A stretch of 22,645 bases of DNA from a virus, in the IMG/VR virus record IMGVR_UViG_3300042987_000391, positions 1 to 22,645 of that record; one strand, given 5' to 3'. The notes beneath the pieces are model-generated. The model made no database searches and was not told the DNA's origin. It saw only the letters and a list, made by a program, of their open reading frames with translations. Positions within the stretch are counted from its first letter, which is position 1. Each line of letters starts with the position of its first letter. Below, piece by piece: positions 3,496-9,274 of this stretch. Both the position numbers and the translations under genes were made by a program.

Positions 3496-4596
3496 CTAAT
3501 TGGTTGTAATTGTTAAGGTTATGGTAACGCGTTCTGGTCCGTTTTCACCGGGTTCCACGTTAAGTCCTACAATGCGGTAAATCTCATCTAAACCATTTGG
3601 AAAACGTTCATCTGTAATCATTAAACGAATATCGTCACCAATTGAATAAGTGCCGTATTCTGGTTCAACAAACGCTGGAACAACAACTTTAATAATTGGC
3701 GGTGGTTCGCTAAGTGCTAATACGCGACCTGTTGCCAGTTCATCTAAAACGTTTTGGTCGGTAATATCTGAATAAGAAGCAGTTGTTTGTAATAACGGAA
3801 AACCATTGGTAAATGAAGTTGAAGCAGTTGCTACTGATAATAATTTACCTTCATTTGAACCAGCACCAGTAACGTATAACGTATTAGTGGTAATTGAACC
3901 ATCTTCGGGATATTCGTAACTTGTTATATTTCCAGCAGGAAACATAAATACTTTGGTATTTAAATCACCAATACCAGTATCAATATGCCCAGTTCGCGGA
4001 TAACCAAGTATTAGAGTTTTTTTAGGTTCGTTTGTAACGTTGTCGTATTCAACTTTAATATTAAAATCAAAACCATCATCTTGGTCGGATAAATCTTTAA
4101 TTGCTTGCCATACTTGTTTCAATTCATAATCATAATAAACGCGGTCAATTAATACGCCAGACGTTTCACTACCAGTTATAACGCCAATATCGCCATAAGG
4201 GAGCAATTGTGCGTCGTCAATTAGCGTTCTAACTATTTCTAATTGGTCGGTATTTTGAAAGTTTTGCGTTGTTGTAATTAATCTACGTTCAAAATAACTT
4301 TCAAATTCTCTGGCTGTAATGGAAATAGTTTGTGCGTCAGAGTTATAAACACGTGCCCAAATAACACCGCCCCAAACAAGTTCGCCGTTTCTATCAACAT
4401 AAATAGCGTTACGTGCTGGAAGCGTGGCATTATCCACGTTATATTCAGCCGAATTAATACCAGATAATAAAATATGGGCTTGAAAAGTTCCAGCCGTATT
4501 TAATTGTTGATTAAAACTAACGCCAGTTATAGGAAGTTCAGCAATAATTTCGTTAGTAAGTAAGTCGGCAAATAAATACCGATAGGTAGTAGTCAT
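3496..4596 (-). CDS. ReqiPepy6 Gp37-like tail-tip protein
   Basis: This 366-residue protein resembles the siphovirus ReqiPepy6 Gp37-like family found after the tape measure and Dit genes in many phages of Gram-positive hosts. The fold is related to the tail-hub or Tal N-terminal region: an N-terminal strand-rich part with W-G-G-V-I-W (about residues 74-79), the segment SITAREFESYFERR (about 90-103) and a C-terminal beta domain with SIGDDIRLMI and EIYRIVGLNV. It likely forms part of the tail hub that closes the tube and carries fibres. A strong SD (AGGAAGG) lies seven bases before ATG. Unusually, a block of fibre-type genes separates it from the Dit gene. No peptidase or glycosidase domain is seen at its C-terminus. 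Confidence 0.8.
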   Translation of the reverse strand: MTTTYRYLFADLLTNEIIAELPITGVSFNQQLNTAGTFQAHILLSGINSAEYNVDNATLPARNAIYVDRNGELVWGGVIWARVYNSDAQTISITAREFESYFERRLITTTQNFQNTDQLEIVRTLIDDAQLLPYGDIGVITGSETSGVLIDRVYYDYELKQVWQAIKDLSDQDDGFDFNIKVEYDNVTNEPKKTLILGYPRTGHIDTGIGDLNTKVFMFPAGNITSYEYPEDGSITTNTLYVTGAGSNEGKLLSVATASTSFTNGFPLLQTTASYSDITDQNVLDELATGRVLALSEPPPIIKVVVPAFVEPEYGTYSIGDDIRLMITDERFPNGLDEIYRIVGLNVEPGENGPERVTITLTITTN

Positions 4597-4615
4597 TTGC
4601 CGACCTTCCTAAAGA

Positions 4616-4849
4616 TTAAGAAATAAGCGCGTTTGCTTCTTCTTCGGTTAAACCAAGTGCTTCAAGTTTAGCAAGAGCAGACGCTTTGGCTTCGGCTTTG
4701 GCTTGTGCTTCGGCTTCGCGTTCTGCGCGCTCTGTTTCTAGTTGTGCCGCTACTGCTTCACGCTCTGCTATTTCTTCCGCAGTTAAAGGAACAATAGTCT
4801 GTTCCCCTGTTGTACAATCCACAACAAGTTTAGTAAGTGTTTCCGCCAT
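4616..4849 (-). CDS. Small alanine/glutamate-rich coiled-coil protein
   Basis: Seventy-seven residues. A short N-terminal beta part (LTKLVVDCTTGEQTIVPLT) is followed by a long charged helix (about residues 22-62, alternating A, E, K, R) and a terminal LEALGLTEEEANALIS. Small proteins of this design sit beside fibre genes in many phages and often have a terminal helix-turn motif of this kind; they are suspected fibre-assembly chaperones or stalk subunits, but that is inference. AAAGGA precedes the ATG by seven bases. Position between the fibre paralogue array and the Gp37-like gene fits a role in fibre folding or attachment. Confidence 0.55.
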   Translation of the reverse strand: MAETLTKLVVDCTTGEQTIVPLTAEEIAEREAVAAQLETERAEREAEAQAKAEAKASALAKLEALGLTEEEANALIS

Positions 4850-4861
4850 GATATTCCTTTC

Positions 4862-5392
4862 TTATGCTTTCTTGATTCCCCAAATAGTGACATTTGAATA
4901 TTGCGCGTATGCGTTTCCTACTTCGTTACTAGCAAGAGCAACGCGCAAATTTGTGATAGCCGCAGAGTTTTCCCAACTTTGAGAAACTATGCCTAAATCA
5001 TATTGAAGATTACCCGTAGCGTCTAAACCTGCGTAGAACGAATATGCGTTTTTAGTATTCGCAGAAGTATAACTAGGAATATAAAACTCAATATTATTAA
5101 ATGTATTAGCCGTGACTTGTGTACCACCGCCATAGGTAGCGATAAGTCGGGCATTAGCATCTGCGGCAGTATTGCCTGAAAAACCATCTAATCGGACATT
5201 GTAATAGTTGGCAGTATTAGAGTTAAACCTGATATAAAGCGCACCTTGGTCTGCGTTGATATTAGCGGTAGTTCGTACCGATATAGTTATAAGCAAGTCT
5301 GTATAGGTACCAGGTATGCTTGCTAGTTCAATAACTGTCGGTGCGCTATTATCAACAGTAGCCGTCTGTATAACTTCGTATGTGAGTGCCAT
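4862..5392 (-). CDS. Fibre/receptor-binding-type protein, paralogue 3
   Basis: This 176-residue beta-rich protein is the third member of a tandem family. It starts with LTYEVIQTATVDNSAPTVIE, followed by the shared core LASIPGTYTDLLITISVR (about residues 23-40), a RFNSNTANYYNVRLDG segment, and the shared C-terminal end with N-V-T-I-W-G-I-K-K-A. The pattern suggests a single jelly-roll or carbohydrate-binding-like domain. The strongest matches with its two neighbours are the first 40 residues and the last 10, with divergent middle loops, as expected if the loops face the receptor. AAAGGCGG precedes the ATG. It sits between another paralogue and the small coiled-coil gene. Role in adsorption is inference from position and fold type. 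Confidence 0.6.
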   Translation of the reverse strand: MALTYEVIQTATVDNSAPTVIELASIPGTYTDLLITISVRTTANINADQGALYIRFNSNTANYYNVRLDGFSGNTAADANARLIATYGGGTQVTANTFNNIEFYIPSYTSANTKNAYSFYAGLDATGNLQYDLGIVSQSWENSAAITNLRVALASNEVGNAYAQYSNVTIWGIKKA

Positions 5393-5911
5393 TTATGCCG
5401 CCTTTATTCCATACAAAGAAATAGTGCTACCAGCATATAGATTTGTTGTAGAACCACCACCGCCGCTTGAGTATAAGTAAATAGATGAGATAGCGTTTGT
5501 AGAGCGATATACGCATACCCCTGCGCCTACTGTGTTATTTCCGCGACCTTCGCGCACCAACACAGTTTTGAACATATTGGTACTTGCGTAGTTCATAATA
5601 TGAATAAGCGATATACAATTTAGATTATTGCTAGGCCAACCATTTTCATATCCACCGAAAATCGCCCAACTTTCATTTACTCTATTTGTTCCATTTTTTC
5701 CACCAGAACTATTACCTGCCATACTTTGTGACGAGTAAAGAGAACTAGAGTCGTTATTGAAGCGTCCAACTAAAGACCAAAAATTGTTTGTAATACCGCC
5801 GGTGAAAACTATCACTAAGTCGGTGTATGCGCTAGAAATATTATTGAAAATCAACCCTGATGTATCACTACCTAACGTTGTTGTAGCAATTGATTCGTAT
5901 GTCGCTGGCAT
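5393..5911 (-). CDS. Fibre/receptor-binding-type protein, paralogue 2
   Basis: Second member of the tandem family, 172 residues. The N-terminus reads ATYESIATTTLGSDTSGLIF and continues NNISSAYTDLVIVFTGG, aligning with the SIPATYQNL and SIPGTYTDL segments of its neighbours. The end, STISLYGIKAA, aligns with FALYGIKGL and TIWGIKKA. The middle is rich in glycine, serine and asparagine (NSSGGKNGTNRVNES; SSGGGGSTTN) and differs completely from the others, so it is probably where specificity lies. The ATG overlaps the stop of the upstream paralogue (TAATG) and AAAAGGA lies six bases ahead. No transmembrane or enzymatic motif. Likely a homotrimeric or decorative tail component. Confidence 0.6.
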   Translation of the reverse strand: MPATYESIATTTLGSDTSGLIFNNISSAYTDLVIVFTGGITNNFWSLVGRFNNDSSSLYSSQSMAGNSSGGKNGTNRVNESWAIFGGYENGWPSNNLNCISLIHIMNYASTNMFKTVLVREGRGNNTVGAGVCVYRSTNAISSIYLYSSGGGGSTTNLYAGSTISLYGIKAA

Positions 5912-6468
5912 TAGAGTCCTTTTATTCCATAGAGCGCAAAGGAAGAATATTGCGCAAAGTTTCCGCTACTTGGAGTAATCGTGAGTGATGTAATAGTTGA
6001 TGTGCTATTCCAAACATTTACATTCAAACTAAACTCGCTTGACCCATTGATATTCATACCACCAATAGTTCTGAGTGTTTTTGTTTTATTGGTATTGCGA
6101 TAATCAAATATATCTACAACACCTGCGGTGAAGAAACTTGTATCCCCTGCTCTATCAAGGTTAGCAATAAAATCAGGATTTGATGTATTTGCGGAAGCAA
6201 GTGAAGTTCCTGTTACATACAAATAAGCAGACTTAGTGAAAGAAGTGCTATTCATAGTCATACGAACAGTTTCTCCACCCGAACCCGAACCCGAAACAGT
6301 AGATTTAGCAACAAAACGCAGTTGAAGATTTTGGTAAGTAGCAGGGATTGAGTTGAACTGTATTGACGAACTACCACCTGACCCTACTGTTTGCGTAGCA
6401 ATAGATACATACGAAGTAGTAGAAAGTCCTTGTTGCGTAGAAGAAGCAATAGTTCCAAGAATAGGCAT
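5911..6468 (-). CDS. Fibre/receptor-binding-type protein, paralogue 1
   Basis: First member of the tandem family, 185 residues from the ATG at 6468. I chose this start over an in-frame ATG nine codons upstream because it overlaps the previous stop as TAATG, the junction style of this operon, and because MPILGTIASS is a familiar N-terminus of phage tail proteins. After this tag-like N-terminus comes TTSYVSIATQTVGSGGSSSI then QFNSIPATYQNLQLRFVAKS, the family core, and an SSFALYGIKGL end. A GSGSGSGG stretch (about residue 70) is encoded by a repeated hexamer. The extra MPILGTIASS tag is absent from the other two paralogues and might be its attachment site to the tail. Confidence 0.6.
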   Translation of the reverse strand: MPILGTIASSTQQGLSTTSYVSIATQTVGSGGSSSIQFNSIPATYQNLQLRFVAKSTVSGSGSGGETVRMTMNSTSFTKSAYLYVTGTSLASANTSNPDFIANLDRAGDTSFFTAGVVDIFDYRNTNKTKTLRTIGGMNINGSSEFSLNVNVWNSTSTITSLTITPSSGNFAQYSSFALYGIKGL

Positions 6469-7103
6469 TAGGAAATATCTCCCACTACATACCAAAGGTC
6501 AGTATTTGCTTTAATTAAAGTTGCGGAAGAATATTGTGCGCGTAGTTTTGGCGCAGTTGCGGTGGCACCAGTTGAAGAAACAGTTGTTGTACCACTTGAC
6601 GCCGCTTGAATTGTTACTTGTCCAGCACCGATTTGAATAATATTTATTTGAGTTCCAATAGGAAACGCAGTTGTGGCATTAGTAGGTATTGAATAAGTTT
6701 GCGCCGAAGCATTAGAAGCAGTAACTAATTTACCATTATCAGTTAAAGCAAACGTATATGTAGTTCCAGTTTGCGCGTTAAAACCAAGATTAATAACTGG
6801 CGCAGTAAGAGTTTTATTTGTAAGAGTTTGCGCAGTTGTTAAATCGGCAGTTACGGAAGTATCAATAGAAATAGTTACTGTTCCGCTAGTTCCACCACCG
6901 CTAATACCAGTTCCAGCAGTTACACCTTCAATATCTCCTGCGCCTGTATAACCAAGTGAATTCCATACAGTTGAACCATTACCGATTTTTACTTTACCTG
7001 TATCAGTTTCATATCCCCATTCACCAGCGGCAAGTGTGGGATTAGCAGAAGTCCATTGTGCGGCAGTTCCTCTGCGTGCTTGAATTTGAGTTACTACTGC
7101 CAT
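6468..7103 (-). CDS. Tail fibre protein with Mtd-N-like start and shared C-terminal module
   Basis: This 211-residue protein has two parts. Residues 1-50 (RRGTAAQWTSANPTLAAGEWG, then GYETDTGKVKIGNGSTVWNS) match the common phage fibre N-terminal repeat also seen in the major tropism determinant. After the G-T-G-I-S-G-G-G-T-S-G linker, residues about 90-211 form a module with TLTNKTLTAPVINLGFNAQT, DNGKLVTASNAS, GAGQVTIQ and APKLRAQYSSAT ending in VVGDIS. That module is repeated in the 346-residue protein encoded at 7362-8402. GGAGG lies eleven bases before the ATG. It likely forms a beta-structured fibre shaft and tip subunit on the tail. Confidence 0.7.
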   Translation of the reverse strand: MAVVTQIQARRGTAAQWTSANPTLAAGEWGYETDTGKVKIGNGSTVWNSLGYTGAGDIEGVTAGTGISGGGTSGTVTISIDTSVTADLTTAQTLTNKTLTAPVINLGFNAQTGTTYTFALTDNGKLVTASNASAQTYSIPTNATTAFPIGTQINIIQIGAGQVTIQAASSGTTTVSSTGATATAPKLRAQYSSATLIKANTDLWYVVGDIS

Positions 7104-7104
7104 T

Positions 7105-7365
7105 TTAAGGTGTACCTCCGTTTACAGTTTGCGTTGCCGCAATATCTGGATTATAACCGCCTTGATAGGGTGCGATACTATCAAACGCGCCACCATCTAT
7201 TTCGGTTAAAATCGTTGTGGTGGAAACTAATTGCCAATTTGAACCATCATAAACTTTTAAACCTTGCGAAGTATTAAAATAAAGGTCGCCAGCGCGTAAC
7301 GCAGGATTAGAAATATCTGACGCGCTAGTAGGTACATTTGTAGGCGTTAAGGCTAAACGGCTCAC
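7105..7365 (-). CDS. Small fibre-associated protein
   Basis: Eighty-six residues read from a GTG that overlaps the previous stop by four bases (GTGA). The central motif AGDLYFNTSQGLKVYDGSNW (about residues 26-45) is the widespread fibre module in which an aromatic strand pair is closed by W; a relative occurs in the protein at 2861-3487. The C-terminus (TEIDGGAFDS and YQGGYNPDIAATQTVNGGTP) is short and glycine-rich. It probably contributes a trimerising or linker element to the fibre complex together with its two flanking genes, which share a C-terminal module with each other. No catalytic motif. Confidence 0.6.
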   Translation of the reverse strand: MSRLALTPTNVPTSASDISNPALRAGDLYFNTSQGLKVYDGSNWQLVSTTTILTEIDGGAFDSIAPYQGGYNPDIAATQTVNGGTP

Positions 7366-8402
7366 GAAATATCACCCATAACTAACCAGTTATCCGTGCT
7401 TGTTTGAACGGCTGTGGCGGTAGAGTATTGCGCTCTTAACTTAGGCGCACTTGCGGTTGCGCCAGTAGAAACAATAGTTACACCAGAGCCTTGCGCAAAC
7501 GTTACTTGTCCAGCACCTAATTGTGCCAAGTTTAATTGCGCGCCAACTGGATAAGCAACGGAAGAATTAGGTGGAATTGTTAGCGTAATTGCCGAAGCGT
7601 TAGAAAGAGTTACTAATTTGCCATTATCATCAAGAACAGTTGTGTAAGTTGTTCCTGTTTGAGCGTTAATACCTAAATTAACTTTAGGGCTAGTTAAAGT
7701 TTTATTAGTAAGAGTTTGTGTTCCTGTTTCGGTAGCAACGCCTGTAAGTGTGTTATTAGCCGCGCTAATAGTTTTATTAGTAAGCGTTTGAGCCGTATTT
7801 AAATCTACTGTAATTGCGGTATCAATTGCCAAAGTTACAGCGCCAGATGAACCACCACCACTTAAACCATTACCAGCAGTAACGCTTGAAATATCTCCGC
7901 TTTCTGGGATATTTGTAGTTACTAAAACGCGTGTATCAGTAATATTGCCGCTAGTAATAGATAACGCACCAGCCGCAACCGCAACAGTTGCTAAAGAAAT
8001 AGAGTTTGCTGGTAACGCTGGCGCAACTGGCGAACCAGCAGGAGTTCCAGCCACAACTTGAAACGCTACGTTATTTGAAGAACCTGAATAATATGAATCA
8101 TTTACAGTCATACAAATTAAATCAATGCGCGGATTTGTAGGGTCTGCCGTAGTAATAGCAACTGTTACTTGCGCGTCATTGTAAGCAACATAAGTTCCCA
8201 TATTACTTTGCGTAGTTCCAACAATTGCCGCCCAACCGCTAGCAATACGAACGCTCATACCAACAGGTGAGTTAGGTGTTACCGCCAAAGAAGATGAATT
8301 AATAATTCCTGTGGTAGCCCAAAGTGCTTGCGTAGTTAAGCGGTCATTTTCCGCTGGGTGCGAACCATTTTGTAACCACGAAGGCGGAGTGCGTAGCGTC
8401 AT
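7362..8402 (-). CDS. Large tail fibre/minor tail protein
   Basis: A 346-residue, S/T/G/A-rich protein. Residues 1-165 form an N-terminal domain (WLQNGSHPAENDRL, RIASGWAAIVGTTQSNMGTY, DPTNPRIDLICMTV) of a type frequent in siphovirus minor tail proteins just behind the Dit, likely the part that docks on the tail tip. A linker with GNGLSGGGSSG follows, then TLTNKT repeats (three copies of the L-T-N-K-T motif near residues 206, 228) and a C-terminal module ending VMGDIS that is shared with the protein at 6468-7103. TAGGAGA precedes the ATG. It is the first fibre gene of the cluster and probably the main attachment fibre; receptor unknown. Confidence 0.65.
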   Translation of the reverse strand: MTLRTPPSWLQNGSHPAENDRLTTQALWATTGIINSSSLAVTPNSPVGMSVRIASGWAAIVGTTQSNMGTYVAYNDAQVTVAITTADPTNPRIDLICMTVNDSYYSGSSNNVAFQVVAGTPAGSPVAPALPANSISLATVAVAAGALSITSGNITDTRVLVTTNIPESGDISSVTAGNGLSGGGSSGAVTLAIDTAITVDLNTAQTLTNKTISAANNTLTGVATETGTQTLTNKTLTSPKVNLGINAQTGTTYTTVLDDNGKLVTLSNASAITLTIPPNSSVAYPVGAQLNLAQLGAGQVTFAQGSGVTIVSTGATASAPKLRAQYSTATAVQTSTDNWLVMGDIS

Positions 8403-8410
8403 TTATTCTC

Positions 8411-9274
8411 CTATACGTAAGCAGAGTTCCACGTTACCGTAGCACTCGTAACATTTACAAGTGTGCTTCCTGCGTCACCTGTTAAATAAAAATCGTTATT
8501 TCCTGGTTCTGCCCAAAACCATTCACCAGAAATAAGCAAATTACGAGCAGGTTGTCCGTTGAGCGTAATAAGTTTATTGTATAAATCTATTTCTAGTAGG
8601 TCAGTATCGGCGTATGTCCCCGTAAAATTTAAGGCAAAACCTTGCGTTTGATTACCTAAAACTGGGTCAGTAATCGGTCCATTAAGCGTTATAGTCGGAT
8701 AAGCGTTTGCCCAACCGTTATTTGTAATAGTGGTAGTAATCTGAACAGAACCGCCACCATAAGTTAAGTTATAAGTGCGGTTATAAATACGACCAGTAGG
8801 CGGCGTATAAGCCAATAAAGCCGTTTGTTCGTTATTACTAAAATACGCTGGGTTAGGGCAAAAAAACTCTACTTGCGCAGTTATATAGCCGTATGTGTAG
8901 TTAGGGTCAATAACAGATGTAAATAAACGAACACGAGCGTTTATATATTGCGTATCATTTGGCGGTAATAAGAAATATAAAGGCGTTGTACCGCTAGTTT
9001 GTGGTAATAGATAACGTTGAAGCGTATTAAAGTTTGTTTGTGCCGAATTAACGCCATCTCCAAATACGTTAAACGTAATGGTAATACTACGACCTGAATA
9101 AAAATCTCTACCAGAAAACATACCATCGGCATATCCTCGGTTATCATCTTGCGTTCTAAGTGATGGAACACCTTCTAATCCTGTAACGCTAAGAATTTGA
9201 TATGGTGAAGTTGCGCCACCAAAAGTTATACCAGCAAATGAAAATGAATATGGTTGCGTTAAAGTAATTGTCAT
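8411..9274 (-). CDS. Distal tail protein (Dit)
   Basis: A 287-residue beta-rich protein directly after the tape measure, the standard position of Dit. The N-terminal half (LTQPYSFSFAGITFGG, LEGVPSLRTQDDNRGYADG, FYSGRSITITFNVFGD) matches the N-terminal ring domain of the siphovirus tail-component family, which forms the hexameric ring at the end of the tube. The C-terminal half (YNLTYGGGSVQITTTITNNG, YPTITLNGP, GEWFWAEPGNNDFYL) is the galectin-like part typical of Dit proteins, with the final W-x-P-G-x-N signature. Its ATG overlaps the tape-measure stop (ATGA). It connects the tail tube to the hub and fibres encoded downstream. Confidence 0.8.
   Translation of the reverse strand: MTITLTQPYSFSFAGITFGGATSPYQILSVTGLEGVPSLRTQDDNRGYADGMFSGRDFYSGRSITITFNVFGDGVNSAQTNFNTLQRYLLPQTSGTTPLYFLLPPNDTQYINARVRLFTSVIDPNYTYGYITAQVEFFCPNPAYFSNNEQTALLAYTPPTGRIYNRTYNLTYGGGSVQITTTITNNGWANAYPTITLNGPITDPVLGNQTQGFALNFTGTYADTDLLEIDLYNKLITLNGQPARNLLISGEWFWAEPGNNDFYLTGDAGSTLVNVTSATVTWNSAYV

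Follow-up and report, generated by a model that had tools for sequence, protein, structure and literature searches.

The three-gene array and its neighbourhood

The window, by which we mean the whole 22,645-nucleotide stretch of viral DNA under analysis (IMG/VR record IMGVR_UViG_3300042987_000391), carries on its minus strand, in this order, the genes for a portal, a Mu-F-like protein and a tail tube, a long tape-measure-like gene, the genes for a distal tail protein (Dit) and fibres, an array of three consecutive paralogous genes (A, B and C), a minor tail protein gene and an endolysin gene (Table 1). The Dit assignment, made from profile matches, places the array in the predicted tail-tip module of this 22.6-kb window. 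The array is compact: the stop codon of A and the start codon of B overlap by one base, while C begins directly after the TAA of B and in the reading frame of B. A homologue of the fibre gene just upstream of A is found in the same position in 168 of 212 loci. This fibre gene and the next one (7362-8402) share a C-terminal domain of approximately 100 residues and both match phrog_8780 and phrog_21978, making them a second paralogous pair in the tail module. Outside the tail module, positions 298-1332 encode a 344-residue protein that matches a phage exonuclease family (phrog_284, 1.1e-38) and has no Pfam family.

Table 1. Features of the array, its neighbours in the window and variants at related loci (L numbers)
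Feature	Position	Strand	Basis
Subunit A, 185 aa: N-terminal tag and a single predicted beta-sandwich domain	5911..6468	-	ORF; profile
A-only N-terminal tag, MPILGTIASSTQQGLS, putative anchor	6421..6468	-	extension confined to the A position
Subunit B, 172 aa	5393..5911	-	profile
Subunit C, 176 aa	4862..5392	-	profile
Upstream fibre gene, Mtd_N N-terminus and conserved C-terminal domain; candidate docking partner	6468..7103	-	Pfam PF18454, 1.7e-17
77-aa Glu/Ala-rich protein, immediately downstream of the array	4616..4849	-	similar ORF adjacent in 128/212 loci (low complexity, hence homology of neighbouring ORFs less certain)
Distal tail protein (Dit)	8411..9274	-	PF22768, 1.2e-9; phrog_33 (Dit), 5.9e-24
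Minor tail protein, downstream of the array	3496..4596	-	phrog_1885, 2.6e-62
C-terminal extension on both B and C	L003 4649-5962 and 5980-7320; L143; L253; L256
C-terminal extension on C only	L224; L268; L278; L283
Extra divergent relatives	L052 7043-7495; L115 332-820; L172 7580-8071; L234 5073-5516; L268 1883-2332; L217 4687-5112; L055 920-1126

The three proteins align from end to end at 25-29% identity, and in pairwise local alignment (BLOSUM62) they score 106, 133 and 96, as against means of 40-46 for shuffled sequences (z = 7.3, 12.8 and 8.0), none of the 1000 shuffles reaching the score of a real pair. The preliminary description of this DNA had proposed three paralogous, variable tail genes that share an N-terminal core and a [Y/W]GIK ending but have unrelated middles. 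The paralogy holds far beyond what chance or low complexity would yield (z of 7-13 over shuffles), homologous variable tail genes are supported, and the common core and ending are evident in the alignment. The notion of unrelated middles was an overstatement and has been dropped, as the middles are diverged yet alignable along the whole length, with the ends far more conserved. Profile searches against Pfam and PHROG returned no convincing family for A, B or C, and no sequence relatives were found in the PDB.

One A, one B and one C in every set

Profile scans of IMG/VR with the three proteins and with each position, together with a genome-contig scan and a search of named phages, yielded 256 distinct loci, of which 19 are cut by a contig end. 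A complete A, B and C is present in every one of the 237 untruncated loci (one set in 224, two sets in 12 and, in the last, a full and a cut set), so that the arrangement expected of an obligate heterotrimeric tail protein, exactly one gene of each type per set, is found in 237 of 237. The gene order is A-B-C throughout, save for B-A-C in one set of L279 and perhaps in L102, which is cut by the contig end, and neighbouring genes within the array are spaced by at most 20 nt in 92-94% of cases. In seven of the single-set loci a further, divergent relative with a weak score lies near the normal A-B-C set. In L040 (5546-5995) B is reduced to 150 residues and the central part of the domain is missing (profile positions ~63-78), suggestive of a shortened or decaying slot. 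The genome-contig scan also located a set on a pond contig (JAIXXV010000018.1) that is binned in a ~0.8 Mb bacterial metagenome-assembled genome and may represent either a prophage or a phage assigned to the wrong bin; the search for hosts yielded no named one.

The preliminary description had assigned an N-terminal MPILGTIASS tag to the first gene only, and this proves to be general in the family: among up to 246 triplets, an N-terminal extension occurs only at the A position, with a median of 17 residues against 0 for B and C. The rule is thus one A, one B and one C per set, with the tag on A, in a family that lies outside Pfam and the PHROGs.

Known receptor-binding proteins of phages are mostly homotrimers, and the three genes could in principle encode three separate homotrimeric adhesins, each with a receptor of its own and all present on the virion. 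Single-copy relatives detected by profile, Streptomyces phage Stuff gp30 (E 2e-8) and a tail protein of Erythrobacter phage XM05 (5e-12), lend this some credence: they contain the same domain and are likewise encoded by tail genes, but carry it once, either within a longer protein or at its end, and are presumably homotrimeric, which indicates that the domain can exist without partners. Such single-copy distant relatives are under-sampled, since the loci were found by matching the A, B and C profiles. Separate adhesins, however, would be expected to come and go singly, whereas no untruncated locus lacks a slot, the two-set loci duplicate the whole set, B and C are without the tag that is always present on A, and covariation between the subunits is specific (see below). 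We consider separate adhesins unlikely, and the earlier suggestion that one virion gains several binding specificities, in the sense of three separate receptors, finds no direct support.

The three positions are ancient lineages

In a FastTree phylogeny of 257 copies the sequences group by position rather than by genome, with two label changes, the minimum for three labels. A smaller IQ-TREE analysis with outgroups supports A at 85 and C at 99; B is nearly, though not strictly, a single clade, and the inner support is weak. The A, B and C types hence behave as separate lineages and not as copies arisen within genomes. When the window genes were classified with position profiles that had been built without the window, each scored best with its own, A at 157 bits against 89 for the next best profile, B at 137 against 82 and C at 120 against 68 (margins of 69, 56 and 52 bits). 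Because copies cluster by position and the window genes score as their own slot, the triplication predates all sampled phages. A recent tandem duplication is ruled out by the clustering on the trees, and the earlier scenario of duplication followed by rapid divergence had the timing wrong.

Covariation and models point to contacts between chains

Mean-field couplings between chains, computed from 246 paired triplets, reach 2.52, compared with a maximum of 1.39 over eight shuffled pairings. Six residue pairs lie above that maximum, each with a member among residues 1-7 of B or C. In contrasts that are independent on the tree, A3-C6 (14:2, p 0.004) and A3-B1 (11:1.5, p 0.012) were retained, the p values being optimistic as the states were picked post hoc and the six tests are uncorrected. 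B5-C166 is one-sided but small and borderline, and the pairs B4-C3, B4-C165 and A30-C7 failed.

In nine loci A, B and C share a reading frame, with nothing but stops and a few residues between them. AlphaFold2 modelling of one such natural in-frame chain (L142), with the stops read as glycine, gave a pLDDT of 86.3 and a pTM of 0.84; the glycine tether itself forces the chains near each other, but a much lower pTM would be expected if the three domains had no defined arrangement. The tethered B and C of the window were modelled with a pLDDT of 78.9 and a pTM of only 0.59, and the two predicted domains have an identical order of 12 strands. The alignment rows used comprised A-B-C and B-C chains, A-B rows having been dropped since MAFFT slid B-C onto A-B. 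Among viral models the L142 chain matched single-domain proteins of uncultured phages (34-46% identity) and one 391-residue protein across two domains (TM 0.48/0.60). Among solved structures it retrieved laminin LG pairs with probabilities of 0.77-0.97 but low TM scores, and galectin-8 with a TM of 0.46 on target length, a weak resemblance of the model to the laminin-G and galectin folds. The window B-C model gave no convincing fold match to solved structures.

Slots are replaced, not gradually diversified

Where both flanks are 80-95% identical at the DNA level, the arrays they enclose usually share approximately 50% identity in protein sequence, close to the 48-50% seen as background; at 95-98% the arrays are either nearly identical or partly or wholly replaced; and at 99.5% or above all are near identical, some of these pairs being one contig fetched twice. 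Two loci can share a contig, and the comparison thus counts some contigs twice. Individual pairs reveal the unit of exchange. In L089 and L095, with flanks at 96%, A is 97%, B 50% and C 95% identical, a single-slot exchange of B, and L039 and L057 likewise differ only in B. L152 and L159 (flanks 91-96%) retain A and have both B and C replaced, while two further pairs (L064/L225 and L018/L249) share a near-identical B flanked by A and C at background identity. The variability of the array is replacement and not gradual divergence. Its source is mostly whole-gene or slot replacement by recombination and not the rapid divergence of recent copies invoked earlier, and a comparison of entropy in strands and loops did not place the variation in loops, so that the receptor-facing loops proposed as its site were not borne out.

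The contigs are assembled from metagenomes and the conserved gene ends can mislead assemblers, which raises the concern that the exchanges between contigs are assembly artefacts and that the array is not truly swapped. This we regard as highly improbable: in L152/L159 and L089/L095 both contigs rejoin the same phage's flank past the swap, such that two errors would be needed, the exchange pairs come from different samples, and arrays enclosed by the most similar flanks are all near identical, duplicate contigs among those pairs notwithstanding.

A putative heterotrimeric tail-tip head

Taken together, we give a probability of roughly 0.7 to the reading that the three genes encode the chains of an obligate 1:1:1 heterotrimeric tail-tip head that is anchored by the A tag and exchanges its slots by recombination. 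Each chain would fold as a beta-sandwich, and the three would come together through their N- and C-terminal strands, as the covariation and the model suggest. Docking of the head to the tail would fall to the tag of A alone, the most likely partner, judging from its position, being the fibre of the gene just upstream, and the variable middles would bind a structure on the host surface, probably a glycan. Recombination would exchange either a single slot or the entire array, each gene always for one of its own type (A for A, B for B, C for C), retaining the three-slot architecture while the binding surface is re-combined. A heteromeric tip, one of two options in the preliminary description, is strongly supported by the rule of one A, one B and one C, the clades by position, the covariation between subunits and the tethered model; the low pTM of the window B-C chain counts against a physical 1:1:1 complex.

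We also incline, if only slightly, towards a wider reading, in which environmental tailed phages, a large group of them, use an obligate three-chain head as a combinatorial adhesin whose slots are swapped singly from a common allele pool, the conserved interface strands and the single tag allowing any A, B and C to assemble. Phage tail tips are usually seen as homotrimers, such that one gene confers one specificity. If slots are indeed replaced singly, this would explain differing attachment among phages with near-identical genomes, and slot-wise swapping among related phages could be a combinatorial route to changing the attachment target.

Heterotrimeric tail proteins have precedents. According to excerpts of the report on virophage DSLV2, its tail proteins QIG59353-QIG59355 form an experimentally demonstrated 1:1:1 heterotrimer that binds cells and, as in the window array, are encoded by three consecutive genes of similar size that form clades by position (PMC12724248). 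The DSLV2 proteins resemble the T4 gp37 tip with collar domain PF07484 (PMC12724248, excerpts), unlike A, B and C, whose Pfam matches up to E 1 do not include this domain, and the same excerpts make no mention of slot-wise exchange between close relatives. A second precedent is mycobacteriophage Mysterious, in which three consecutive siphophage genes (gp35, gp36 and gp37) encode a beta-sandwich heterotrimer resolved by cryo-EM at the distal tail (PMC13252515, preprint); the window array is likewise three consecutive genes, with a predicted beta-sandwich trimer. A point of difference is that the Mysterious proteins are described with N-terminal hairpin arms and a ring of six (PMC13252515). A tblastn search with the A, B and C consensus (E 0.01) returned no Mycobacterium phage among 50,697 phage records, which may not include the Mysterious genome. 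Finally, host-recognition genes in the metaviromic islands of marine phages, including C1q-like and lectin-like ones, vary among otherwise similar phages, and the excerpted account describes neither an obligate three-paralogue array nor slot-wise exchange (PMC3909814). Heterotrimeric tail proteins and variable host-recognition genes are thus already known, and against these sources, as excerpted, the slot-wise exchange of the window family looks new.

Tag, appended domains and fusions

Replacement of the A domain tends to leave the tag behind with the flanks: the median tag identity is then 53%, compared with 27% for random pairs, and tags at least 80% identical account for 18% of pairs with related flanks but 0.3% of random pairs. 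At the opposite end of the proteins, 10 triplets have an addition of ~250-290 residues at the C terminus of C, four of them also on B, and no triplet has one on A. Where B and C are both extended (Table 1), the added domain measures ~270-290 residues; in L003, where they were tested, the appended domains are Gly_rich_2. A proximal A with C and B reaching outward would fit the pattern of the tag and the appended domains.

The same data bear on the alternative that A, B and C build some other mixed assembly, such as a ring encircling the tail tip, with a structural and not a receptor-binding role. The heterotrimers of Mysterious gp35, gp36 and gp37 do form a ring of six on the distal tail protein (PMC13252515), and the array lies near the Dit gene. 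Were the ring purely structural, however, one would not expect it to be where phages with near-identical flanks differ most, and Gly_rich_2 domains appended to C and B speak against it as well. Both arguments still leave room for a ring that also binds receptors; an assembly with a structural role only is, in our estimate, distinctly improbable.

In two of the 10 triplets with an extended C (L046 and L274) C is fused to the A of the following set, and in L046 this fusion (4175-5488) runs through an FN3 domain. The C of one set joined to the A of the next in L046, L274 and L279 looks as if two heads were strung together.
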